Positions 16,581 through 61,860 of a stretch of 64,000 nucleotides of DNA are shown one piece after another. The position numbers and the translations under genes are program-made. This DNA is from Deltaproteobacteria bacterium (lineage in GTDB: Bacteria > Myxococcota_A > UBA9042), in contig VGRO01000001.1 of assembly GCA_016875335.1 (NCBI GenBank), forward strand, positions 1 to 64,000. Direction: 5' to 3'. Under the pieces are notes generated by a model. The model saw nothing but the letters and a program-made list of their open reading frames with translations, was not told the DNA's origin and did no database searches. Numbering within the stretch: the stretch's first letter is position 1; the number at the start of each line of letters is the position of its first letter.

Positions 16581-16608
16581 TGGATCTGAACAATGGGGGG
16601 GGCGGTTC
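16581..16608 (-). repeat. C-tract hairpin element, copy 1
   Basis: Strand is given for the C-first reading. Right arm GAAC at 16605-16608 reversed, two bases, 8 C (16595-16602), ATT, then GTTC (16588-16591), AGATCCATG and TTTT. The arms pair perfectly with a 13-base loop. It lies about 10 bases before the GTG start of the exported-protein gene and downstream of the MenH-like gene. Confidence 0.8.
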
Positions 16609-49404: not shown

Positions 49405-52212
49405 CTACGGCAAGACCACCACGGGCACAGGTGGCACGAAAAGGCCCTGCTCGTCGGCAACCTGCACCTGGTTGGCATACCACAGGTTGCCGGTCATCAT
49501 GGCCTGGACCGGCGGCTGCTTGACCAGGCCGAAATGGCCCTTGGTCGCCGCGCAACCCTGGATGACCGCGTTGGTCACCTGCCGCAGAAGCAAGCCACTG
49601 CGCAGTTGGTTGCTGACCAGCGTGCGGGCAACTACGGCGCGCGAACTGCCGTCGATGACGATGCCGTCGGCGTAGTAGCGCACGTCGCCGGGCGGGGCGC
49701 CGCGCTCGTCGAAAGGTTGGTAGCTGCTGGGCTTGGTGTCGATCACCACGGAGTCGGTCAGTTCGAAGCCCGCGACGCTGGCCGAGAAACCGCCCGCGTG
49801 GTTGCGACGGAAAAGGCACGCCGAAAACCGCGCCGCGTCGCCCGCCCCCACCAACATCACGCCCGCCCCGGCAATCCCGGTGGTTTCGGGCAGCGAGTCC
49901 TCGAACACGTTGCCAGCGGCCTCAACCGCGGTGCCGCCCGCGAGATTGGCGTTGAGCGATCCGACATGGTTGGCCGACATCACACTGCCGTACAAGACGA
50001 GGTGAGCGCCCTTGTGGACGAAAAGGCCCGCGCCCCACCACCCGTCGCTTGCACGTGGCAACGTGTGGTCCACCCGCAAACCCACGGCCACCAGCCGCGT
50101 GCCCGGGTCGCGCACGGCGATGCCGGTCGTCCGGTTGGCGGCGAGGCGTACCTGGCGCAGCCGCGCAGTTGAGCCCGTGCCGACGCCCACCCCGTAGCCC
50201 ATGTCGAGCACGTCGCTGCGGGGTTCCGTGTGATCCACGAGCACATCTTCGGCGTCGAGGGCCGTGCCTCCCCCGCCGACCGCAATGCCCATGGCGCGGT
50301 TGCGGTGGACGCGCACAGACGACAGCCGGACCTGGGCCCCGCCCATCGCCTGCACGCCGATGCCCGTGGCGTTCGACAACGCCGTAGCCACGGTATCGTC
50401 CACGAGCGTATGAGTCGCCGTCACGGAGCTGCCCTTGCCGGCCGCATACAGGCCCACGTTGGCATTGCCGGTGACGCGGGCGCCAGAGAGCGCGATGCTT
50501 CCGCCGAGTTGGGCCACGGCCGCCCCGCCGTCGTGGTCGGTGGCCTGACCGAGCGTGCCGTCGATGACCGCGCCGCGCAGGTTCGCGCTGCTTTTCTTGT
50601 CCACGGCGACCAGCCCACTGGTCCGGTTGCCGCTCAACCGCACACCGACTCCCTGCAACGTGGCGCCCTGCTGCACCAGGATGCCGACGCCGCGCAAGCC
50701 ATCGGTCTGCTGCGGTTGCGTCGCATCCACGATGGCGCCCCGCAGCGCCACCTTCGCTCCCAGCGTGAGCGCAGCTCCGGCCAGGTGGTTGCGGTGCACA
50801 CGCAGGCTGGAAAGGTCGGCGGCTGCGGATTGCACCAGCATACCGACGCCGTACTTGCCGCCCAGCGCAGGTTGGGTGTGGGCGACCAGCACCTGATCCC
50901 CGTTCAGTGCACTGATGGCGTGGTCTACGAAAAGGCCGGCGAGCCGCGCCCGCAGCACCGCGACCTGGTGCAGCGTCGCCTTGGCGCCGCCATCGACGGC
51001 CACGCCGATGCCAGTGTTCGTGCTCAGCGCCTTGACGTCGTGAATCACGGCGCGCCGCAGCGTCAACTGCGTACCCTTTCCAGTGGCCCACAGACCGCCG
51101 TCCACGGGCATTGGCACGTGCACGTCTTCTACAACGGCCTCGGCGCCCCCTTGGACCAGCAGGCCCCAGGTGCTCTGGGCCAGGGTCAGGTGTTGCAGGG
51201 CATAGCCCTGCGGATCGCCGCCGTCGGGCAGGATCCGCAGTGCAAACGCCGCACCGCCCTCAATGCGCACCTTGGACGCACAGACGCCGCGCACCACCAT
51301 GGGCTTGGTGATGTCCATGCCGCCCTTGTAGGTGCCGGCTGCCAGCAACACGGTCTGGCCCGCCTTGGCCTTGTTCAGGGCGGTCTGCAACTGGGCGAGC
51401 GGTGCGGATGCCGAACCGTCCCCCCCAGGCGGGGCGCTGCTGTCGACGAAAAGCCAGTCGGCCTGCCCTGCGAGGCTGCCGTAGCCGCTGCCGGGGCACG
51501 GCGCCGGGTCCGGGGCGCAGTTGGCGGGTGCGGCCTGGTTCGCGGGCGCGACGACGATGAACCCCGGCGGACAGGTCCATGGCACGCCCACGGGCTGGCA
51601 CGTCGCCCCCGTCGCAGCCGGCATCGTCGCCGGCCCGCAAGGCCCCGGTTCGCACGGCTTGACGCCCTCGAACGGCGTCGCGTCGCAAAAAGACTGCGCC
51701 TCCGTCGCGGCGACGGGCGTCGGAGCGGCTACGCCGACCGGTGCGGCGAGTCCATCACCCCAAGCCGGGCCGGCGCTGGCGAGGCCCGCTGGAATGCACC
51801 CGCCGCTGCCGTGGGCGACCGTGCCGGCGAGGCAAGCCGCCGCTCGTTCCTGGGCTGTGCAGGTCGCGTTTGCCGGCAGGCAGTCCGCATCGCCCGCGTC
51901 ACAGGAGTCTCCCGCCTCGGTCCGCCACACCAGGCACCAGCGCGGCACGCACTGCTCTGGGTGTTCGACCGCCTGCGATGCGCATTCTGGCGGTCCGACC
52001 GCCGCGCACGCCGCGGAAGGCCCGTCCCAAAACCTCCCGGTCGGGCAGCAGCCTCCGCCGGGCATTCTGGCGACCTCGGCACATGTCACGTTGGCCTGCG
52101 CCTCGCCGTCGACGGACGCGTCGCTGCGTCCGCCAGGGGCGGCTTCGCCGCTGCACGCCGTGGCGGCGACCGTGCACCATGCAGGCAGCGACCGCTCGAT
52201 GGAATTTCGCAT
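49405..52212 (-). CDS. Parallel beta-helix lipoprotein (pectate-lyase-like repeats)
   Basis: The protein has 935 residues from an ATG at 52212; the signal ends TAC (residue 20). Residues 20-290 are Cys/Pro-rich linker with many short motifs. Residues 300-900 are about twenty repeats of roughly 25 residues (for example VRVHRNRAMGIAVGGGGT, VRLAANRTTGIAVRDPGT, VLVDHTEPRSDVLDMGYG), the pattern of a right-handed beta-helix. It starts with the PbH1-type opening LAQLQTALNKAKAGQTVLLA. It could bind or cut surface polysaccharide, or be an adhesin. No catalytic residues were identified. Confidence 0.75.
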   Translation of the reverse strand: MRNSIERSLPAWCTVAATACSGEAAPGGRSDASVDGEAQANVTCAEVARMPGGGCCPTGRFWDGPSAACAAVGPPECASQAVEHPEQCVPRWCLVWRTEAGDSCDAGDADCLPANATCTAQERAAACLAGTVAHGSGGCIPAGLASAGPAWGDGLAAPVGVAAPTPVAATEAQSFCDATPFEGVKPCEPGPCGPATMPAATGATCQPVGVPWTCPPGFIVVAPANQAAPANCAPDPAPCPGSGYGSLAGQADWLFVDSSAPPGGDGSASAPLAQLQTALNKAKAGQTVLLAAGTYKGGMDITKPMVVRGVCASKVRIEGGAAFALRILPDGGDPQGYALQHLTLAQSTWGLLVQGGAEAVVEDVHVPMPVDGGLWATGKGTQLTLRRAVIHDVKALSTNTGIGVAVDGGAKATLHQVAVLRARLAGLFVDHAISALNGDQVLVAHTQPALGGKYGVGMLVQSAAADLSSLRVHRNHLAGAALTLGAKVALRGAIVDATQPQQTDGLRGVGILVQQGATLQGVGVRLSGNRTSGLVAVDKKSSANLRGAVIDGTLGQATDHDGGAAVAQLGGSIALSGARVTGNANVGLYAAGKGSSVTATHTLVDDTVATALSNATGIGVQAMGGAQVRLSSVRVHRNRAMGIAVGGGGTALDAEDVLVDHTEPRSDVLDMGYGVGVGTGSTARLRQVRLAANRTTGIAVRDPGTRLVAVGLRVDHTLPRASDGWWGAGLFVHKGAHLVLYGSVMSANHVGSLNANLAGGTAVEAAGNVFEDSLPETTGIAGAGVMLVGAGDAARFSACLFRRNHAGGFSASVAGFELTDSVVIDTKPSSYQPFDERGAPPGDVRYYADGIVIDGSSRAVVARTLVSNQLRSGLLLRQVTNAVIQGCAATKGHFGLVKQPPVQAMMTGNLWYANQVQVADEQGLFVPPVPVVVLP

Positions 52213-52328
52213 GGCAGAGACGCGTCGCATGGTGGCAGGGGACCTGCATCGCCCGGCGTTGTCAAGCGCGCGCGGCACGCGTTTTGCACTCCACGATCGA
52301 CATCGTCCGACTTTTCGAAACAAAACCA

Positions 52329-52356
52329 TGGATCTGAACAATGGGGGGGGGCGATC
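52329..52356 (-). repeat. C-tract hairpin element, copy 8 (variant arm)
   Basis: It has 9 C (52343-52351), ATTGTTCAGATCCATGG and TTTT in the C-first reading. The opposite arm is GATC at the same 13-base distance, giving three of four pairs. It lies about 117 bases before the start of the beta-helix lipoprotein gene. Confidence 0.75.
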
Positions 52357-52402
52357 GCGGGCCACGAGGATTCGCACTCGACAGGAATCTCCAGTAAATC
52401 CA

Positions 52403-52428
52403 TGGATCTGAACAATGGGGGGGGCAGC
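52403..52428 (-). repeat. C-tract hairpin element, copy 9 (no arm)
   Basis: It has 8 C (52417-52424), ATTGTTCAGATCCATGG in the C-first reading. The opposite arm is not recognisable, so no hairpin. It lies 74 bases from copy 8. Confidence 0.75.
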
Positions 52429-52595
52429 ATGCGGCCACGGGGCAGCGCGCCGGATTTTTCCGTCAAAACAACGGTCTGGGATGGCCGCGCTGCTTGACGA
52501 CACCGGGCCGATGGCGATAATCGGCGCCGGGCGAACCGCGGACTGTCGCCCGAGGACATGCACTGGACACCACGCGACCGCCCAGCCGACCCGCC

Positions 52596-54173
52596 TTGCG
52601 CTTGCCCACCGTGCTGGCCCTGGCTGTGGCCGTGGCAGTAGCGGCCGGATCGGCCTGGATGCGGTTTCGCGGCCCGGCGCTCGGCTACTGGGACACGTAC
52701 ATCGCGGCCCCGGCCATGCTGATCAACGGGATGCCGGTCGATTTCGTGCTGGCCGACGGCGCGCCGGCATGGACGTACAACCTGAGCGGCCGGCTGCCCG
52801 AAGATCTGGTGTCGCCGCACGCCTACGGCATCGCGACCAAGGACCAACGGTTCGGTTCGGCGCTGGCGGCCGCGCAGGGTTTCGCGTTTGCGGGCGTGCT
52901 CGGGTTCCGCCTGACGTTTTGCCTGTGCGTCGCCCTGCTGCCGCCGCTGACGTTGCTGGTCTGGCGCCGCTCGGGCGGCTCGGGCGACTGGCCGGGCGTA
53001 GTCGCGGGGCTGTGGCTGGCGTGCAATCCGTTGATGCTGGCGACCGACCGCTTGAACCCCAGCGTCTTTGCCTTGCCCCTGTTGCTCGCAGTCATCGCCC
53101 TGGTGGTCGACGCTGCACCCCGAGGCGCGCTGGCCCGAGCTGCCGTCGCGGGCTTGGCCCTGGGGCTGTGCGCGTCGATGCGCGAGGAGGCGGTCTGCTT
53201 CGTGCCTGCCCTGGGTGCGTGGTTGCTGTGGGGTCGAGCTGAGCTGCGCGGGCAGCGCTGGAAATGCGTCGCCGTCTTTGGCACGGCATGTGTCGTCGCG
53301 ATGGCGCCGAGCCTCGCGTGGAAGGCGTTCGTCTTTGGCGACCCCTTGATGCACCCCAGCCAGTACGATCACCACGATGGCTGGCGACCGACGTTTCCTC
53401 ACCAATTCCTCGGGGTGCGGTTTGCATTCAACGGCCTGCTGAACTGGCCGTTCGCCCAAGAGTGGGTGCGCACGCCGCACTTCGCGTTCCCGGTGGTGCT
53501 GCTGTGGCCCTTGACGGCCATCGTGGCGCTTGGCATGGCCGGCGTGGGCCTTGTCGGGGCGGGTTGGTGGCGGTTGCGGCGCAGGTCACCGGACCTGGCC
53601 TGGCTGTGTGTCGGCTGGGTGGTGCCGCTCTACGCACTTTTCGGGCCGCAGGAGAACTGGGAGGAGGTCAAGATGACCTTCCTGCTTTTGGCGTTTCCGG
53701 CCGTGGCGCTGCCGCTGGGCGAAGGGCTTGTCGCGGCGGTTGCCGGTATCTCTGCTCTGCGTTTGCGGTGGACTTGGCTGTGCCCGCCGGCGCTGCGCGC
53801 TGGGCTCGCATCCGGCGCCGTGGCGACCGTCGTGGTGCTGGCATGCCGGACGGTCGACGTGCCTGCCGACCCGCGCTGGTACGTGCGGTTTCCCAACGCC
53901 GATGTGCGACGCAACCCGGTCGCGTCGCGCGAACTTGCGCAAAGCGAACGCGGCGACTGGACCTTTTTCCAACGCGCCGACCATCCAGCCGAGCTCGCGC
54001 GCGAGAGGGCGCGCCTGACGCGCTGGACGCTGTGGCCGGCCACCTATCTGCCGGCGCGGTGGTCGTGGCACGAGACCATGCAGCAGACCGCAGCGGAGGC
54101 CGGCGCCCGTCGCTGGAAAGTGCTGGACGTCTGGGGCTACATCTACGGGGCACGCCGGTGGCCGAGCGGCTGA
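52596..54173 (+). CDS. Polytopic membrane protein, glycosyltransferase-like (ArnT/mannosyltransferase type)
   Basis: The protein has 525 residues from a TTG at 52596; a CTG at 52563 has a better ribosome-binding site (GAGGA). About ten hydrophobic helices are present. The first extracytoplasmic loop has WMRFRGPALGYWDTYIAAPA with an acidic residue, and a loop SMREEAVCFVPALGAWLLWG follows, a pattern like GT-C family glycosyltransferases, where an Asp/Glu in the first loop is the catalytic site. The assignment is by shape only. It is the first of five coupled genes; the next gene overlaps its end by 16 bases. Confidence 0.55.
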   Translation: MRLPTVLALAVAVAVAAGSAWMRFRGPALGYWDTYIAAPAMLINGMPVDFVLADGAPAWTYNLSGRLPEDLVSPHAYGIATKDQRFGSALAAAQGFAFAGVLGFRLTFCLCVALLPPLTLLVWRRSGGSGDWPGVVAGLWLACNPLMLATDRLNPSVFALPLLLAVIALVVDAAPRGALARAAVAGLALGLCASMREEAVCFVPALGAWLLWGRAELRGQRWKCVAVFGTACVVAMAPSLAWKAFVFGDPLMHPSQYDHHDGWRPTFPHQFLGVRFAFNGLLNWPFAQEWVRTPHFAFPVVLLWPLTAIVALGMAGVGLVGAGWWRLRRRSPDLAWLCVGWVVPLYALFGPQENWEEVKMTFLLLAFPAVALPLGEGLVAAVAGISALRLRWTWLCPPALRAGLASGAVATVVVLACRTVDVPADPRWYVRFPNADVRRNPVASRELAQSERGDWTFFQRADHPAELARERARLTRWTLWPATYLPARWSWHETMQQTAAEAGARRWKVLDVWGYIYGARRWPSG

Positions 54174-54931
54174 CAGTGACCTGGGTCCGCACCTCGTGCG
54201 TGCTGCTGCGCTCCGTTGGCCTCGGCCTGCTGACCGATCCGTGGTTTGCGCGTCACATGCGCGGGCTGCCGGTGTTCCGCAAGCCGGCCGTGGCCCTGGA
54301 CGCGCTGCCGCGCATCGACTTCGTCTTGGCGTCGCATCTGCACAGCGACCACTTTGACCCGGCCGCCGTCGCGGCTCTGGCCGCCAAGGGCGCGACCGTG
54401 GTGGGGACTGTCGGTACGGCTGCACATGTGCGGGCCCATGGCATTGGCGCCGAGGTCATCGAGCTGTCGCCGTGGCAGACGTTTTCGCGCGGCGCGCTGC
54501 GCGTGGTGGCGACGCCCGCGTTGCACACGGGTCCCAAACCCGACGAAATCGGGATGTGGCTCCAGGTTGGAGATTTCCGATGTTATTTCGCTGGAGACCA
54601 GCGATTCGGGCCGGTCTTTCGTCAGGTCGGCGCGAGATTGCCGCGGGTCGACCTGGCCCTGCTGCCGGTGGGCGGCACGCTGATCTTCGGCCACCGGACG
54701 ACCATGGACCCTGCCGATGCGGTTCGGGCGGCCCTGGTGTTGCGGCCGCGTCACGTTCTGCCTATCCACGAGGGCGGCGAATGGCTGCCGGTGCCGCCGG
54801 CCAGTTGGCACCCGGGTCGCCGCGGCGCCTTCCTTGCCAAACTGCGCACGACGGGCGCCGACGTCGTCGGTCTCGATGCGGCCCCCGGGGTGGAAGTCGA
54901 GGTGCCACCCGCGCCACCCGAGGCTTCGTGA
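54158..54931 (+). CDS. Metallo-beta-lactamase-fold hydrolase (UlaG/phosphodiesterase-like)
   Basis: The protein has 257 residues from a GTG at 54158. The metal sites are visible: H60-x-H-x-D-H65 (SHLHSDHFD), His123, Asp147 (FAGDQRFG) and His204 (PIHEGGEW). The order and the N-terminal TWVRTSCVLLRSVGLGLLTDP match the UlaG/N-acyl-phosphatidylethanolamine phospholipase D branch. The overlap with the previous gene and the GTGA overlap with the next place it in a tight operon. The substrate is unknown, perhaps a lipid or sugar phosphate. Confidence 0.82.
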   Translation: MAERLTVTWVRTSCVLLRSVGLGLLTDPWFARHMRGLPVFRKPAVALDALPRIDFVLASHLHSDHFDPAAVAALAAKGATVVGTVGTAAHVRAHGIGAEVIELSPWQTFSRGALRVVATPALHTGPKPDEIGMWLQVGDFRCYFAGDQRFGPVFRQVGARLPRVDLALLPVGGTLIFGHRTTMDPADAVRAALVLRPRHVLPIHEGGEWLPVPPASWHPGRRGAFLAKLRTTGADVVGLDAAPGVEVEVPPAPPEAS

Positions 54932-55875
54932 CGGCGCGCGTGCCCGCCTGCGAGGTCGCCGGCGACGTCGACGCGGTCGCAGCCGCCCTGCGCTGGATCG
55001 GCTGGATCGTCGATCCGCGCAGCCGTGACGCGGCCACTGGCCATTGGTGGTCGTGGGTCGGCGAGGGTGGCTACCCCTACGCCGAGGCGACAGCCTGGGT
55101 CTTGCTCGCACTGGCAGAAGCGCGCGCCGCCGGCATCGCCCACGGCAGCGCCTTGGCCGAAATCGGTGACGCAGCGTGCGAGGGCCTTGCCCGCGGCGCG
55201 CGCCAGGGGGGCCTGGGGCGAGGCGGCCGCTGGTACGCGTTCGACACCGCCGTGGGGCTGGCCGCGGTCCACGCGTGGCGACCCGAACATCCCGCAGTGA
55301 ACGCCCTGTGGCTGCAGTTGCGGACGATGGCGGCCGAGCGGCGGGCGGTGCAAGGTGGGCCGCGTCTCGGACAACCGGCGCCAGGGGCGCGGTGGAGTGA
55401 AGTCTGGGGCGCGCATCTGCTGTGGCTGGCCGTGGCGGCGCACAGCCTTGGGGAGGTCGCGTGGGCCCGATCGTTGGCGAAAGACTTGTTGGACCCCGCG
55501 GCGTTGGTACCGATGCCGACGTATTGTCATGCACTGGCCTACGCTTGCGAAGGCTTGGTTGCCCTGCGCGGCGAAGCAGTGTTCGATACGCAGTTGGGGG
55601 CGTGGTGGACAAGGTTGCGGCGCGCCGCCACACCGGGTGGGGTCGTCGCCCATGCCGGCGAAAAAGGACCCGTGCGCGCTGACACCACCGCCCAAACGGC
55701 CCGGCTGCTGCGCACGCTCGAACCGCAGGCCGATGCGGCGCCGTGGCTGCGCCTGCTGTGGGACTGGACCGACGCCCAAGGGGCGGTGCACTACGAGCCC
55801 GGGTCGCCGCATGCCAACGCGTGGTGCACGGCAATGGCGCTGCGCGCAGCGGTCGCTGCACTGGAGGACGGGTGA
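54928..55875 (+). CDS. Alpha/alpha-toroid-like protein of unknown function
   Basis: The protein has 315 residues from a GTG at 54928 in a GTGA overlap. The sequence is a series of helical pairs: GGYPYAEATAWVLLALAEA, RWYAFDTAVGLAAVHAW, TYCHALAYACEGLVAL, and ADTTAQTARLLRTL. Repeats of this kind occur in terpene-cyclase/prenyltransferase and glycosidase (alpha/alpha)6 barrels. No DxDD, aspartate-rich or catalytic motif is evident. It might bind a polyprenyl or sugar substrate for its neighbours; this is inference. Confidence 0.5.
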   Translation: MTARVPACEVAGDVDAVAAALRWIGWIVDPRSRDAATGHWWSWVGEGGYPYAEATAWVLLALAEARAAGIAHGSALAEIGDAACEGLARGARQGGLGRGGRWYAFDTAVGLAAVHAWRPEHPAVNALWLQLRTMAAERRAVQGGPRLGQPAPGARWSEVWGAHLLWLAVAAHSLGEVAWARSLAKDLLDPAALVPMPTYCHALAYACEGLVALRGEAVFDTQLGAWWTRLRRAATPGGVVAHAGEKGPVRADTTAQTARLLRTLEPQADAAPWLRLLWDWTDAQGAVHYEPGSPHANAWCTAMALRAAVAALEDG

Positions 55876-56930
55876 CCACCCATCACGTGCCGCTGGTCAT
55901 CGTCGGGGCAGGTCCCTACGGCTTGTGCGCGGCATGGGCGGCGCGAAGACGCGGCTTCGAACCGATGGTGCTGGACCGCAACCCACTGCCTGGCGGGGCG
56001 TGGCAGCACATGTGGCCCAACATGCGTTGCCTGTCGCCGCGCCAGTTTGACGCCACGCCCGACGGCTTCGTGTCGCGGGGCCCGCACGAGTTTGCGACGG
56101 CCGAAGAAGTCGCAGAGCAGTGGCAGCAGTTTGCGCGCCGCCAGCATTTTTCCCTGGCGCTCGGCACGACGGTGCGGGGCATCGCGGCGCAGGCCGACGG
56201 TTTCGCGGTGCACCTCGACGCCGACGTCGTGTGGGCCCAGCGCGTGATCCTCGCCACCGGCGAGTTCGACGCACCGGTCTGTGCGAACCTCGCGCCCGAC
56301 ACGCGACAACTGCCCGCAGGGGTCGTGCACGTGCGGGATCTGTTGCCAGATCGGCTGCGCGGCCTGGGTCGGGTCATCGTGGTCGGCGCGGGCAACTCCG
56401 CCGCGCAGGTGTTGGCGACCGCGGTGCACGCAGGGGCGCGGGTCAGCCTGTGCGCCAAGACCGTGCCGGGCCACGTCTCCGCATGGAAAAGCGGCATTCT
56501 CGGCCACGCCCGCTGGCGCTTGTCGGGCCTGGATCTCAAGGTGTGGTCGCTGTCGTCGCGCTGCCAGATGCGCGCGCCGCTGATGGATCCCGCGCTGCTC
56601 GAACTGTTGGGCAGCGGCGCTGTGCAACGATTCGGCGCCGTGGCCGAGTTGTTCGATGGCGGCGTAGTCACTGCCCAGGGCGAGCGCCTGACCGCCGACC
56701 TCGTCGTGCTCGCTACCGGCTACCGCCGCGACCTCGATCTGGTCGCCGGTCTCGACCAGTTGGGCCCGAGTTCGTTTCCGGCCCACAAGCGCGGCGTCAG
56801 CGTCCGCCACCCGGGACTGGGCTACGCCGGACTGCCGTGCGCCCGCACGCTGCGCAGCGGATTCTTGCGCGGTGCAAAGGGCGACGCGATTGCCCTAGTA
56901 GGTGCGGTACTGCGCGGAGTTCGGCCGTGA
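55872..56930 (+). CDS. Flavin-containing monooxygenase-like oxidoreductase
   Basis: The protein has 352 residues from a GTG at 55872 in a GTGA overlap. An N-terminal FAD-binding block IVGAGPYGLCAAWAARRRG (GAGPYG at 12-17) and a second nucleotide-binding block VIVVGAGNSAAQV near 170 mark a two-dinucleotide-binding flavoprotein. It also has VILATGEFDAP and VVLATGYRRDL. The layout is like lysine/ornithine hydroxylases and Baeyer-Villiger enzymes; the FMO fingerprint is not fully there. It may hydroxylate or oxidise the product of the operon. Confidence 0.78.
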   Translation: MTTHHVPLVIVGAGPYGLCAAWAARRRGFEPMVLDRNPLPGGAWQHMWPNMRCLSPRQFDATPDGFVSRGPHEFATAEEVAEQWQQFARRQHFSLALGTTVRGIAAQADGFAVHLDADVVWAQRVILATGEFDAPVCANLAPDTRQLPAGVVHVRDLLPDRLRGLGRVIVVGAGNSAAQVLATAVHAGARVSLCAKTVPGHVSAWKSGILGHARWRLSGLDLKVWSLSSRCQMRAPLMDPALLELLGSGAVQRFGAVAELFDGGVVTAQGERLTADLVVLATGYRRDLDLVAGLDQLGPSSFPAHKRGVSVRHPGLGYAGLPCARTLRSGFLRGAKGDAIALVGAVLRGVRP

Positions 56931-57772
56931 CGCCGGCCGCGTGGTTGGCCTGGTCTGGCGTCGCGCTGGTTGCCGCGCCCATGGTCGCCTACTGGGCGAT
57001 GACGTTGGGGGGGCGACGGAGCCTGTGGCGGCTGGTCGGACTTCGCCACAGCATGATTGCCGTGGGGTGCAGTGTAGTTGCCGTGGGGTCGCTCGTCGCC
57101 GGCAGCCCGGCACCTGCGTTCCTGGCCGTGCTCTCGGTCGCGTACCAGGGCCGCCGGCAGTGGCTCTTTCCCATCGGACCGATTCCGTTGGCCGCTGATA
57201 CTCGACCGGTGCCCGATGACGCCTGGCTGGCGGTGTTTGAGGACGGTCGCGCCGCCGCGCTAGAGGAACTGCGCCGCTGCCGCTTGGCCCGCACCGGCCG
57301 CGGTGAACTGCTGGCGTGTTGCGGACTCGCCCGCTCGCTCATCGCCGTGCGCGTGCCGGATGTCGCTGCGGTGCAATTGCACCTGCCCTTGCCGGTCGGG
57401 TTTGCCTTTCGCGTGGGCGCCGAGGTCTTCGACGGCACCACGGGCATCCTTTTGGATGGCGATCGCCGCCTGACGCCTGTTGCGCTGGCGTTGGCTTCGG
57501 GCGCGGCTTGGCGCCGCCGCTTTCCCGACGGCGTGCTGTTGACCGCGGGACTGCCGTTGGCGCCGCTGCGGTGGCCGCGCGCACCAGGCCGGACCGGGTC
57601 CAAGCTCCCCATCGTCAGCGGTAGTCTGGAAAGGGGCCTGTGGACGCCGCTGCCCGACCACGCGAAGGATCTGCCGGAACTGCCGCCAGCGGGGGTGCCG
57701 TGGCCAGAACGACGGTTTTGCCCGCGGCCTGCCGAGGTTGGGCAAGTTTCGTCAACAGTTTCATCGATCTGA
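56927..57772 (+). CDS. Protein of unknown function with N-terminal membrane anchor
   Basis: The protein has 281 residues from a GTG at 56927 in a GTGA overlap. Two hydrophobic helices occur near 5-25 and 40-75, then a soluble domain of about 190 residues (PDDAWLAVFEDGRAAALEELRRC, LPLPVGFAFRVGAEVFDG). I do not recognise it. DUF3179-like proteins, and other proteins of unknown function with this length, could fit. Its stop codon TGA (57770-57772) is part of copy 10 of the C-tract element. Confidence 0.5.
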   Translation: MTPAAWLAWSGVALVAAPMVAYWAMTLGGRRSLWRLVGLRHSMIAVGCSVVAVGSLVAGSPAPAFLAVLSVAYQGRRQWLFPIGPIPLAADTRPVPDDAWLAVFEDGRAAALEELRRCRLARTGRGELLACCGLARSLIAVRVPDVAAVQLHLPLPVGFAFRVGAEVFDGTTGILLDGDRRLTPVALALASGAAWRRRFPDGVLLTAGLPLAPLRWPRAPGRTGSKLPIVSGSLERGLWTPLPDHAKDLPELPPAGVPWPERRFCPRPAEVGQVSSTVSSI

Positions 57773-57791
57773 ACAATGGGGGGGTCCGTCC
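57765..57791 (-). repeat. C-tract hairpin element, copy 10
   Basis: C-first reading: GGAC (57788-57791), three bases, 7 C (57778-57784), ATT, GTTC (57771-57774), AGATCGATG. The stem has one G-U wobble and a 13-base loop. The TGA of the opposing plus-strand gene lies inside it. It is 124 bases from copy 11, further downstream of the same minus-strand gene. Confidence 0.8.
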
Positions 57792-57884
57792 GAGCGGCCC
57801 TGGCGGCGGCGATGCCTCTCGGGCGCCGCACCCACGCCGACTCAAGGCTGCGCGATCAAAGCAACCCCAAAATCCTATTCGAAA

Positions 57885-58895
57885 TCAAGCGTCTGAACAA
57901 TGGGGGGGATCGTCCAGCAGCCCCAGCGCCAGCCGCCGGACCTCGACCGCCAGGCGCTCGCGCCGATAGTCGGCGTCGTAGGGGATGTTGGGCAGCGGCC
58001 GGCAGCGGTCGAACGCCATCCGGCCGAGTTCCGCGGCGAAGGCGGCGCCCATTGGCCGACCGGCCAGGCCCTTGAGGTCGAGCACGCGCGGCCGCGGCCC
58101 CAGCACGCCCACGACCAATCGACCGCCGACTAGCGCGCCCCCTGCCAATTCCAGGCGCAGCGCCACAGAAATCAAAGGAAAATCGATGCTCTTGCGCACC
58201 GCCCACTTGCGGTGGCCGACGCGGACGTGCGGACCTGGTACTGGCACTCGCACACTGGTCAGCAGTTCACCCGGTGCCAAGCGCACATGGCGCGTGCCGT
58301 CGCTGTCGTAGAGGTCGGCGAGCGGCAACTCGCGCCGTGCGACCTGTCCATCGCGCCAGCCTGCGACCTCCACCACGGCGCCATAGGCGATGAGCACAGG
58401 CGCGGTGTCGCTCGAGAGCGCGGCCACGCACCCCTGGCCCCCGGGTACGACATGGCACTCGCTGCCGTGGCTCTTGAGGCAGCCACCGAGCGCCGAGCGC
58501 CAGAACTCGCTCTGGTTGATGTAGCGACAACGGGTGTCGAGGCACAGGTTGCCGCCGAGCGTGGCCATGTTGCGGATCTGCGGGCTGGCGACGCGCGCAG
58601 CGGCCCGGCCAAGTGCGGCGCATGTCTCCAGGATCGTCGGGTCCGTGGCCAACTCCGCAAGCGTAGTGCCCGCGCCGATCCACACGTGGTCGCCGCGCCG
58701 TTCGAGGCCGCACAGGCCGCCCACATTGCGCAACAGCACGGCGGTGCCGAGGCGCGTCTGACCGAGTTTGGCGTTGGGCACCAGGTCGGTACCGCCAGCC
58801 AGCGGCCGCGCGCCCTGGTTCGGATCCGCAAGCAAGTGCAGCGCGCCGGGCAAGTCCCGCGGCGCCGCGACGTCGAACGCGGGCAACCTCAGCAT
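57885..58895 (-). CDS. hcrB: Molybdenum hydroxylase FAD subunit with extra 4Fe-4S site (4-hydroxybenzoyl-CoA reductase beta-like)
   Basis: The protein has 336 residues. The FAD block is RPLAGGTDLVPNAKLG, and SPQIRNMATLGGNLC is the second. Then Cys123, Cys139, Cys147 and Cys156 occur at spacings 16, 8 and 9, in RCRYINQSEFWR and CLKSHGSECHV. This is the insertion that binds an additional 4Fe-4S cluster in the beta subunit of 4-hydroxybenzoyl-CoA reductase (HcrB), and each position is one above the residues I recall for Thauera. Ordinary CoxM/XdhB lack it. The last ten residues are encoded by copy 11 of the C-tract element. It is the end of hcrC-hcrA-hcrB. Confidence 0.85.
   Translation of the reverse strand: MLRLPAFDVAAPRDLPGALHLLADPNQGARPLAGGTDLVPNAKLGQTRLGTAVLLRNVGGLCGLERRGDHVWIGAGTTLAELATDPTILETCAALGRAAARVASPQIRNMATLGGNLCLDTRCRYINQSEFWRSALGGCLKSHGSECHVVPGGQGCVAALSSDTAPVLIAYGAVVEVAGWRDGQVARRELPLADLYDSDGTRHVRLAPGELLTSVRVPVPGPHVRVGHRKWAVRKSIDFPLISVALRLELAGGALVGGRLVVGVLGPRPRVLDLKGLAGRPMGAAFAAELGRMAFDRCRPLPNIPYDADYRRERLAVEVRRLALGLLDDPPHCSDA
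57890..57917 (-). repeat. C-tract hairpin element, copy 11
   Basis: C-first reading: CTGGAC (57912-57917), three bases, 7 C (57902-57908), ATT, GTTCAG (57893-57898), ACGCTTGATTT. It has a 6-bp stem with one G-U wobble and a 13-base loop. It encodes the last residues of the FAD subunit (LDDPPHCSDA), whose stop follows directly. Confidence 0.8.
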
Positions 58896-61300
58896 GTGCC
58901 CGACCTCTCGCGCAGCGCCCGCAGCACCTTGGCCGGCGAAATCGGCAGGTGGTCGATGCGCACCCCCACGGCGTCGAACACAGCGTTGGCGATGGCCGGG
59001 ATGGCGCTGTGCAGCGGGCCTTCGCCGGCCTCCTTGGCGCCGTAGGGGCCGTGTGGGTCGGGCGCTTCGACGATGATCGCCGACAACTGCGGCACATCGA
59101 GCGACGTCGGGATGCGGTAGTCCAGCAGCGACGATGCGGCGAGCAAGCCGTCGCGGCCCGGGCCACTGTCGCGCCGCTGCCGAGGATCGCGCAGACCGCT
59201 CGGCATCACCTCGTGCAGTTCCATCACTGCCTCGGCCGCGCCCATGTACACCGAGCCCTCGATCTGCCCCTCGACCAGCACCGGGCTGATGGCCTTGCCG
59301 CAGTCGTGGGCGCACCAGATCTGAACCACGCGGACCTCGCCGGTCTCCTGGTCCACTTCAACCTCGGTGACGTGCGCCGTGAACGAGTAGGCCGGACTGG
59401 CGCCGATGGTGCCGCCGCGGTAGTCGCCGTGCACGCCGGTCTTGGGCGTGTTGTACGAACCCGTGGCGCCGAGCAGTCCGTACTTGCCCTCGGCCAGGAT
59501 GAAGGCCTCTTGGATTGGCATCCAGCGGTTTGGATCCTCCGGGTCGGTCGCGCGGCGGTGCGCGAGCACGATCCGCTCGGCAGGGACGCCCCACGCCTCG
59601 CCCACGACTTCGCGGACGCGCATTCCCAGTGTCTTGGCGGCCTGTGCACAGGCGTTGCCGGCCATCAAGGTGATGCGCGAACTGTAGGCGCCGAGGTCCA
59701 CCGGGCACAGGTCCGAATCGGCGGCGACCACGCGCACGTCGTCGAGCTCCACGCCAAGCTCGTGGGCGGCGATGGTGGCGATCATTGTGGTGCTGCCTTG
59801 ACCGATGTCGCTCGTGCCCGCGAACACCCGCACCCGGCCCGAGCGATCCAGCGCCATCTGCACGGCGGACTGCGGCAATTCGGTCGGGTAGATGCAGTAG
59901 TTGGTGCCGCTGATATAGCACGACCCCGCGACGCCGATTCCCCGACCGGCCGGCAGCCTTCCCCATTTGTCGCGCCAGCCGCTCGCCCGCTCGACGGCAT
60001 CCAAGCAAAGCAGAAAGCCGTTGCTGCCGACGTGAAAGCCGTTGACGGTCGTGGCGTGTTCGCCCATGAAGTTGCGGCGGCGCAGTTCGAAGGGGTCCAG
60101 GCCGAGCGCACGGCTGGCCTTGTCAAGCTGGACCTCCAAAGCGAATCGCGGCTGCACCGATCCATGGCCGCGCTTGGGGCCGCACGCCGGCTTGTTGGTG
60201 TAAACGCGCGTCGAGTCGAACCGGTAGCTGCCGAACGCGTAGGGCGCCGCGAGCAACTGGCCGGAGTAGTAGGTGGTGACCAGCCCAAACGAGCTGTAGG
60301 CGCCGCCGTCCAGCAAGGCCCGCGAATCGACGGCCAGGATGCGACCATCCGCCGAGAACGCCGTCCGGTAGCGCATGTCGAACGGGTGGCGGCCGCGGTG
60401 GGCCAAGAACACCTCTTCGCGGGTGTACAGACACTTGACCGGCCGGCCCGTCTTCTGGGCCAACCGCGCGACGCAGAACTCCAGGGCAAACGGCTCGGAC
60501 TTGCCGCCAAATGCACCGCCGACTGCCGGCTGGATGACGCGGATCTGCCGCATCGGCAGGCAGAGCACCTTGGACAGCTCGCGCTGCAGGTAGTGCGGCA
60601 CCTGCGTCGCCGACCACACCGTCAGCAGCCCCTTGCCATCGACGACCGCCACCGCGCAGTGGGGCTCGATAGGCGCGTGCGCCGAACCGTGGAAGCGGTA
60701 GTGTCCCTCGATGACCAGTGGGGCCTCTGCCAGCGCTGCGTCCACGTCGCCAAACGCCAACTGCACACGCTTGGTCACGTTGCCGTGCTTGTTGTCGTCG
60801 TGGATCTTGACGTCACCGCGGCGCAGCGCCTCCTCGGGATCGACCAGCGCCGGCAGCACCTCGTACTGGACGTCGATGCGGCGGCACGCTTCGTTGGCCA
60901 CGTCTTCGCTTTCGGCGGCCACCGCGGCGACCGGGTCGCCCACGTAGCGCACCTTGTGCAAGGCCAACGCGTGCTCGTCGGGAGTCCAGGGAATCACGCC
61001 ATAAGGCGTCGGCAACTCGCTGCCCACCAGCACCGCATGGACCCCCTGCAGCGCCTCGGCGCGGCTGGTGTCGATGGCCGCGATGCGCGCGTGGGCGTGC
61101 GGGCTGCGTACGAGCTTGCAGTGCAACATGCGCGGCAGCGCGAGGTCATCGGTGTACCCCGCCGCGCCGGTCATGAGAGCCAGCGCGTCGTGCTTGCCGT
61201 GGCGACCGCCCAGTAGCGGCGCCGCTTCGGCACGGCCGTCGTCCTGCGCCAAGCGGTGCAACTGCGCGGCCGTCTTGTCGCTCGAGATCGGTCCGGTCAC
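58889..61300 (-). CDS. hcrA: Molybdenum hydroxylase large subunit (HcrA-like)
   Basis: The protein has 803 residues from a GTG at 61300. It carries the molybdopterin-cytosine cofactor. Signature blocks are LVRSPHAHARIAAIDTSRA, PYGVIPWTPDE, QPAVGGAFGGKSEPFALE (FGGK binds cofactor), TSDIGQGSTT, and the C-terminal GPYGAKEAGEGP with the active-site Glu. With the 2Fe-2S and FAD subunits it forms an (alpha-beta-gamma)2 enzyme. 4-Hydroxybenzoyl-CoA or a related aromatic thioester is the best guess for substrate. It overlaps both neighbours (GTGA upstream, 7 bases downstream). Confidence 0.85.
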   Translation of the reverse strand: MTGPISSDKTAAQLHRLAQDDGRAEAAPLLGGRHGKHDALALMTGAAGYTDDLALPRMLHCKLVRSPHAHARIAAIDTSRAEALQGVHAVLVGSELPTPYGVIPWTPDEHALALHKVRYVGDPVAAVAAESEDVANEACRRIDVQYEVLPALVDPEEALRRGDVKIHDDNKHGNVTKRVQLAFGDVDAALAEAPLVIEGHYRFHGSAHAPIEPHCAVAVVDGKGLLTVWSATQVPHYLQRELSKVLCLPMRQIRVIQPAVGGAFGGKSEPFALEFCVARLAQKTGRPVKCLYTREEVFLAHRGRHPFDMRYRTAFSADGRILAVDSRALLDGGAYSSFGLVTTYYSGQLLAAPYAFGSYRFDSTRVYTNKPACGPKRGHGSVQPRFALEVQLDKASRALGLDPFELRRRNFMGEHATTVNGFHVGSNGFLLCLDAVERASGWRDKWGRLPAGRGIGVAGSCYISGTNYCIYPTELPQSAVQMALDRSGRVRVFAGTSDIGQGSTTMIATIAAHELGVELDDVRVVAADSDLCPVDLGAYSSRITLMAGNACAQAAKTLGMRVREVVGEAWGVPAERIVLAHRRATDPEDPNRWMPIQEAFILAEGKYGLLGATGSYNTPKTGVHGDYRGGTIGASPAYSFTAHVTEVEVDQETGEVRVVQIWCAHDCGKAISPVLVEGQIEGSVYMGAAEAVMELHEVMPSGLRDPRQRRDSGPGRDGLLAASSLLDYRIPTSLDVPQLSAIIVEAPDPHGPYGAKEAGEGPLHSAIPAIANAVFDAVGVRIDHLPISPAKVLRALRERSGTC

Positions 61301-61860
61301 GCCGCGCCCCCGGGTCCGTCGCCGATTGCCTGCGCTCGCGAACAGGTCTCTTGCGCTGCGGCCTCGACCGCCTCGAGAATCTTGGTGTAGCCCGTACACC
61401 GGCACAGGTTTCCGCCGAGCGCAGCCGCGATGTCGGCCCGGCGGATGACCGGCGCATCCGCACGGCCCAATTCGTCGAGGTAGTGGGCCGACGACATCAG
61501 CATCCCAGGCGTGCAGAAACCACACTGCGCCGCTCCGCGCTCGGCGAAAAGCCGTTGCAGCGGATGAGGTTCGCCACCGACGCCCAAGCCTTCGACGGTC
61601 TCGACGTGGCGACCCTCGGCGGCGACGGCCAGCGTGAGGCACGCAAGGGTCGGCAGGCCGTCGACCAGCACCGTGCATGCGCCGCAGTCGCCCTTGTCGC
61701 ACCCCTGCTTGCTGCCGACCAAGCCGAGCTGGTAGCGCAAGAGTTCCAATAGCGTCCAATGGGTGGGCGCGGCCACGGCGTGAGCTTGGCCATTGACGTG
61801 CAGTCGCACGACGGCAATGCGGCGGGCCTGCGCGGGGTCGAGGGGTTCGGCGATCGGCAC
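61297..61860 (-). CDS. hcrC: Molybdenum hydroxylase 2Fe-2S subunit (HcrC-like)
   Basis: The protein has 187 residues from a GTG at 61860. The plant-type cluster ligands are Cys54, Cys59, Cys62 and Cys74 (GCDKGDCGACTV) and the second cluster ligands are Cys113, Cys116, Cys153 and Cys155 (CGFCTPGM and CRCTGY). It transfers electrons between the molybdenum centre and FAD. The ends overlap the large-subunit gene by four bases. It is the first gene of the three. Confidence 0.88.
   Translation of the reverse strand: MPIAEPLDPAQARRIAVVRLHVNGQAHAVAAPTHWTLLELLRYQLGLVGSKQGCDKGDCGACTVLVDGLPTLACLTLAVAAEGRHVETVEGLGVGGEPHPLQRLFAERGAAQCGFCTPGMLMSSAHYLDELGRADAPVIRRADIAAALGGNLCRCTGYTKILEAVEAAAQETCSRAQAIGDGPGGAA

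Follow-up and report, generated by a model that had tools for sequence, protein, structure and literature searches.

Among described systems, the closest to the locus reported here are the polyprenyl-phosphate sugar synthases AglJ and PpgS paired with PMT/ArnT-type GT-C glycosyltransferases, the NodU/CmcH/TobZ carbamoyltransferases, the QueC/MnmA-type PP-loop ATPases, the UPF0173 and NAPE-PLD-like hydrolases and the alpha/alpha-toroid enzymes, which include type II terpene cyclases, glycoside hydrolases and epimerases. The locus is a five-gene operon, g1 to g5 in order on the + strand, in a 64,000-nucleotide stretch (positions 1 to 64,000 of contig VGRO01000001.1, henceforth the window) from a Deltaproteobacteria bacterium of the Myxococcota_A (assembly GCA_016875335.1, genome G000). 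Comparison with related genomes indicates that the operon belongs to a larger set of about a dozen genes which very probably forms one functional system. Each part falls within a known superfamily or is similar to one, and no description of the set was found in the family libraries and papers searched, in line with a first-pass annotation, made from the sequence alone, that knew of no described cluster of this composition. The set travels in uncultured aquatic bacteria and is apparently undescribed.

All five genes are open frames with coding-like codon statistics (GC3 0.78–0.85 when GC was counted by codon position). A GT-C/PMT_2-like polytopic glycosyltransferase is predicted from g1 (52596..54173), a metallo-beta-lactamase-fold hydrolase from g2 (54158..54931), an alpha/alpha toroid of an unnamed family from g3 (54928..55875), a class-B flavoprotein from g4 (55872..56930) and a membrane-anchored beta-domain protein from g5 (56927..57772). 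The overlaps of 16, 4, 4 and 4 bases in the first-pass annotation were confirmed from the stops and starts: g1 stops at 54173 and g2 starts with GTG at 54158, a start that agrees with the N-termini of its relatives; g2 stops at 54931 and g3 starts with GTG at 54928; g3 stops at 55875 and g4 starts with GTG at 55872; g4 stops at 56930, g5 starts with GTG at 56927 and ends at 57772. The codon at 52563, given there as the operon start, is a CTG, and the start codons of an ordinary type in frame are TTG at 52596 and GTG at 52611; which of the three is used by g1 is uncertain. Four-base overlaps are ordinary for an operon in a 70% GC genome, and it is the kept gene order and the co-occurrence described below, not the overlaps, that argue for a non-chance grouping of g1 to g5.

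The five genes were found in the same order in a second metagenome-assembled genome (MAG) of the same genus (G005; contig SHZD01000054.1, isolate Baikal-deep-G136), with identities of 61, 74, 42, 56 and 39% for g1 to g5, respectively. There, g5 is followed on the same strand by genes for a PP-loop ATPase, a small Cys-Cys (CC) protein, a cysteine desulfurase, a NifU-like scaffold and a radical SAM/SPASM protein, while a NodU-type carbamoyltransferase is encoded next door on the opposite strand. Clusters in other Myxococcota families hold a family 2 glycosyltransferase (GT2), g1, g2, g3, two carbamoyltransferases (CarbA and CarbB), the radical SAM protein, the PP-loop ATPase and the CC protein, without g4 and g5. 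Thus locus L104/L178 carries, within about 11 kb, CarbA, a small transmembrane (TM) protein, the NifU-like protein, GT2, g1, g2, CC, PP-loop, g3, CarbB and radical SAM, and locus L111 carries PP-loop, CC, cysteine desulfurase, g3, GT2, CarbB, radical SAM, g1 and g2, all on one strand. In 17 of the 26 mapped loci g2 comes immediately after g1; GT2 was present in 16, CarbA in 16, g3 in 14, radical SAM in 13, CarbB in 11, PP-loop in 10 and CC in 8; these counts are minima, many of the loci being contig ends. Outside the Myxococcota, PP-loop, CC, g1 and CarbA are contiguous on two Omnitrophota contigs, and on a contig labelled as archaeal a fragment of g1 is accompanied by genes for PP-loop and B12 radical SAM proteins. 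In G000 itself the remaining partners lie outside the window: CC, cysteine desulfurase, NifU-like and radical SAM genes together on contig C33, GT2 on C5, CarbA with its small TM protein on C6 (79% identity to G005) and PP-loop on C103. Since the partners are present but scattered over contigs, the cluster probably came apart in this lineage.

Presence of the genes was also compared across a phylum sample of 331 genomes and a class sample of 52, a strong g1 orthologue being defined by an E-value below 1e-100. In the phylum sample strong g1 and strong PP-loop orthologues each occur in 21 genomes, 20 of them shared (hypergeometric p 8e-30, a value which, like those that follow, ignores phylogeny). 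The CC protein occurs in 19 genomes, 18 with g1 (p 1e-25) and all 19 with PP-loop. Within the class sample, 12 of the 14 genomes with g3 also have g1 (p 2e-7), as do all five genomes with g5 (p 1e-3). The set is patchy even inside one genus, being found in 2 of 6 genomes, so that its genes have probably been gained or lost together more than once.

These data bear directly on the idea that the operon is accidental, five genes without a common function. Four-base overlaps are frequent in dense genomes, and in genomes G034 and G031 g4 and g5 lie apart from g1 and g2. However, the gene order recurs in G005, g1, g3, PP-loop and CC co-occur far above chance and g5 is confined to genomes with g1; the accidental reading is highly improbable and, for g1 to g3, largely refuted. 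The single pathway proposed in the first-pass annotation is thereby supported, strongly for g1, g2 and g3 by order and co-occurrence. Its five-gene unit proved too small, as GT2, two carbamoyltransferases, radical SAM, PP-loop, CC, cysteine desulfurase and NifU-like genes belong with it, and joint conservation was borne out in part: all five genes stand together only in G000 and G005, whereas the adjacent g1–g2 pair and, in the 14 loci noted above, g3 extend well beyond the genus.

The g1 protein passes the Pfam PMT_2 model (PF13231; 29.4 bits, cut-off 26.1) and has about seven hydrophobic stretches, as a polytopic membrane protein. A GYWDTY motif is invariant in an alignment of 11 orthologues, its D33 being the invariant acidic residue of the first loop. 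The partner GT2 is nearest to the polyprenyl-phosphate sugar synthases AglJ and PpgS. With a GT2 of this kind beside a PMT_2-type GT-C protein, family knowledge makes a lipid-linked sugar donor for g1 the simplest reading, and for the same reason the polyprenyl or glycolipid product suggested in the first-pass annotation is plausible. The arrangement differs from AglJ/PpgS with PMT/ArnT-type pairs in that g1 orthologues have a conserved C-terminal domain of their own, in that a Protein Data Bank (PDB) sequence search with g1 found no solved relative, and in the company of carbamoyltransferase, radical SAM and sulfur genes. Longer g1-like GT-C paralogues of 720–770 amino acids are found repeatedly, either close to the clusters or at other places in those genomes (L104:1641-3809, L096:10074-12251, L154:2432-4747).

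Glycosyltransferases of both kinds would also be expected of an ordinary O-antigen or surface polysaccharide locus whose product is decorated in an unusual way. Such polymers are known to contain carbamoylated sugars, and a WecB-like epimerase was seen in genomes G026 and G040. On the other hand, Wzx, Wzy, Wzz, an ABC exporter or a series of glycosyltransferases were not seen recurring in the mapped loci, which were not searched by family for them; the core is fixed across phyla, unlike variable O-antigen loci; and this reading does not explain why genes for the desulfurase, PP-loop and CC recur. We consider this explanation quite unlikely.

The g2 protein passes Lactamase_B_2 (PF12706) at 94 bits, and its metal ligands, HxHxDH (H60, H62, D64, H65), H123, D147 and H204, are invariant in 10 relatives. 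The nearest solved sequences are NAPE-PLD (4qn9, E 1.8e-14) and the UPF0173 protein TM1162 (E 5e-14). While all metal ligands of UPF0173 and NAPE-PLD-like hydrolases are kept, g2 differs from them by the extra conserved motifs GTLIFGHRTTM and EWLPVPPASWHPGR, by a score of 66.7 bits against the NCBIfam PRK00685 (UPF0173) equivalog model, below its cut-off of 144, and by being a frequent neighbour of g1.

No family match was found for g3 in Pfam and NCBIfam. Its AlphaFold2 model, built from 16 relatives, has a predicted local distance difference test (pLDDT) score of 91 and a predicted TM-score of 0.90, and structure prediction thus bore out the alpha/alpha toroid that had been proposed for this protein. 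The closest Foldseek match is the type II terpene cyclase MstE (E 4.6e-6), and further fold matches are UGL-type glycosidases, GH76 and AGE-type epimerases; TM-scores to these toroids are about 0.6–0.65. The invariant residues of the family are F105 D106, W156 S157, H201, E208, D252, Q256 and W299, of which F105 D106, W156, H201, E208, D252 and W299 look like a candidate active site. DxDD, the catalytic motif of type II terpene cyclases, is absent from all 16 members. The g3 family shares a fold with type II terpene cyclases and with toroid glycoside hydrolases or epimerases, but lacks DxDD and has other invariant residues, and the window protein matches no family profile.

The likeness to MstE raises the prospect of a diffusible secondary metabolite, such as a glycolipid or sugar-linked terpenoid, in which g3 would act like a terpene cyclase, g4 would oxidise, carbamoyl and sulfur groups would be added by tailoring and g1 would glycosylate a lipid precursor. 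MstE and squalene-hopene cyclases are the closest folds to g3, 2 of its 16 members touch SQHop_cyclase_C (E 1.3e-3), and the patchy distribution of the set would fit such a product. Against this stand the missing DxDD motif, the GH76, UGL-type and epimerase toroids that score nearly as high, the lack of a recurring prenyltransferase, polyketide synthase or nonribosomal peptide synthetase gene in the mapped loci, and GT2, GT-C and small membrane proteins that point to the membrane. A secondary metabolite is thus unlikely.

For g4, the first-pass reading as an FMO-like flavoprotein held in part. The protein passes Pyr_redox_3 (PF13738; 90.6 bits) and has GxGxxG motifs at 12 and 172, but scores only 16.2 bits against the FMO-like model PF00743 (cut-off 22) and 114 bits against the ArsO model (cut-off 425), and the FMO fingerprint FxGxxxHxxx(Y/F) is unmatched. 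With a match to the solved 4usr (E 2e-15), g4 is predicted to be a two-Rossmann flavoprotein akin to class-B monooxygenases.

The g5 protein, previously described as an anchored unknown, retains its anchor in the predicted structure (pLDDT 80), in which an N-terminal helical membrane anchor precedes a beta domain; a PDB fold search with this model gave no significant match. The window protein has no match in Pfam and NCBIfam, the DUF3179 cut-off (PF11376) was not reached, and one of six relatives matched it at E 0.13. By hhalign with a 21-sequence profile, g5 aligned to DUF3179 with a score of 42 (P 3.6e-5), whereas 150 shuffled controls reached no more than 28.7 and five other alignments no more than 22.9; hhalign with the single sequence had given no clear result. 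Profile comparison thus ties g5 to DUF3179 as a divergent relative, the likeness being a RAxP / C-x-L / C-terminal W..hP pattern. Differences are the N-terminal anchor, the score under the Pfam cut-off and one cysteine instead of the usual CxxC (CPLC): only the first cysteine of that motif is kept, and C132 is the single invariant cysteine of g5. Because DUF3179 includes selenoproteins with UxxC/T (PMC9312934), the kinship hints at a redox cysteine in g5.

In G034 and G031 g4 and g5 are adjacent to one another, with a five-TM protein ahead of them; g5 also occurs in G026, and G055 has g4 and g5 on separate contigs. The g4–g5 pair is a separate accessory module, as it sits away from g1 in G034 and G031 and the two modules are separate elsewhere. 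The five-TM proteins of G034 and G031 (L145:4865-5479 and L147:6834-7427) are 39% identical, and none is encoded beside g4 and g5 in the window.

Both CarbA and CarbB match the two carbamoyltransferase Pfam domains far above cut-off. They share these domains with NodU, CmcH and TobZ, from which the system differs in that its fuller clusters hold two distinct members, CarbA preferentially beside the small three-TM protein and CarbB preferentially beside g3 and radical SAM. The PP-loop partner shares the SGGxDS loop of QueC/MnmA-type ATPases and has weak QueC, MnmA and ThiI matches, but forms a family of its own, in which two cysteines (C120 and C211) are invariant. It is the usual companion of the CC protein, for which a PDB sequence search found no match. 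The solved chain nearest to the PP-loop family is 9kq6_N (E 1.6e-23). That protein is named 'asparagine synthetase domain-containing protein' in 70 chains of 5 entries and lacks the first invariant cysteine at the aligned site; no paper on it was found. The PP-loop thiolase MnmA uses two cysteines, Cys102 and Cys199, for persulfide or Fe-S chemistry (PMC11784392). The PDB search found no MnmA kinship by sequence, and the parallel with C120 and C211 is a lead only.

A metallocofactor or thio-modification system built on a sulfur and radical SAM core, with g1 to g3 serving envelope delivery, would account for the cysteine desulfurase, the NifU-like protein, the radical SAM/SPASM protein and the two-cysteine PP-loop ATPase with its MnmA parallel. 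The carbamoyltransferases belong to the HypF superfamily, and nitrogenase-like genes adjoin the cluster in G026. Those genes are limited to one genome, however, the PDB search gave no sequence match of the PP-loop protein to MnmA, and many clusters lack cysteine desulfurase and NifU-like genes while GT2 and GT-C are among the most constant members; we regard this explanation as improbable. The G026 genes (L020:10750-15249, beside GT2 and the toroid) encode a NifH-like protein and two proteins like nitrogenase component 1, one of 751 amino acids. As none was present at any other mapped locus, they were rejected as pathway members.

There is about an even chance that the larger set serves to build or modify an envelope glycoconjugate linked to a lipid. 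From the observed existence, order, conservation, co-occurrence and folds or families of the genes, we infer a substrate, an order of steps and a product as follows. The partner GT2 would load a sugar onto polyprenyl phosphate, and g1 would move the polyprenyl-borne sugar to an acceptor at the outer face of the membrane. The zinc hydrolase g2 might cleave an intermediate at an ester or phosphodiester bond, and g3, which lies near CarbB and radical SAM in many clusters, might work on the glycan or lipid part. A carbamoylated product is implied by the two NodU-type enzymes, which would carry out that modification. The cysteine desulfurase, the NifU-like protein and the PP-loop ATPase with C120 and C211 imply sulfur transfer or Fe-S assembly, and these proteins, with CC, would supply sulfur or assemble a required Fe-S cluster. 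The g4–g5 pair could catalyse a flavin-linked redox reaction at the membrane. The roles given to g2, g3, g4 and g5 are guesses.

Besides the neglect of phylogeny in the co-occurrence p-values, several observations weigh against this glycoconjugate scheme. The named organisms are all uncultured MAGs. Genome G050 has g1 without a strong PP-loop, and G035 shows the opposite; most genomes with g1 lack g4 and g5, which are unlinked to g1 in G034 and G031; and in G000 the genes are scattered, with PP-loop more divergent (50%) than the other partners. GT2 and g1 could also belong to a general route of glycosylation, beside which the other genes just happen to lie.

The operon is flanked by copies of a genome-wide repeat with the consensus CATGGATCTGAACAATGGGGGG, present in 100 copies in the genome, mostly intergenic and on both strands; the reversed pattern, used as a control, had 0 copies. 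The repeat is often followed by GTTC, so that GAAC...GTTC arms are possible, and copies are often paired or tripled at 70–145 bases. Within the window they lie at 16584, 16709, 16789, 22884, 25446 (− strand), 28166, 31370, 52332, 52406, 57767 and 57891. Two copies, ATCTGAACAATGGGGGG, stand upstream of the operon (52332..52422, +) and two downstream (57767..57907, +), the copy at 57767 providing the TGA stop of g5. Rfam gave no match in the window, the repeat included. A consensus scan found one promoter-like site ahead of g1 (TTGACG-16-GATAAT, 52494..52521, +) where 0.2 were expected, which is not evidence of function. Divergent from g1 lies a gene for a large secreted-looking beta-helix-type repeat protein (49405-52563, −), and a similar-looking protein is encoded at 78.6–81.3 kb of the contig (L023:14603-17314). 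Convergent with the operon are three genes that by eye resemble molybdenum hydroxylase subunits of the xanthine dehydrogenase or 4-hydroxybenzoyl-CoA reductase kind (57885-61860, −).

A fuller version of the glycoconjugate scheme, which we hold to be possible though doubtful, is that the product would be a new carbamoylated, sulfur-containing envelope glycoconjugate made by a portable pathway common to Omnitrophota, several families of Myxococcota and possibly an archaeon, and that g3, g5, PP-loop and CC would each be the first member of a new family of enzymes or carriers. With the comparison, an operon of five unannotated genes has grown into a defined set of about a dozen, with clear phyletic co-occurrence. 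It makes the toroid, the CC protein, the PP-loop ATPase and g5, which have no family name, concrete markers to mine, and it provides a testable claim about a lipid-linked sugar in bacteria so far represented by metagenomes alone.

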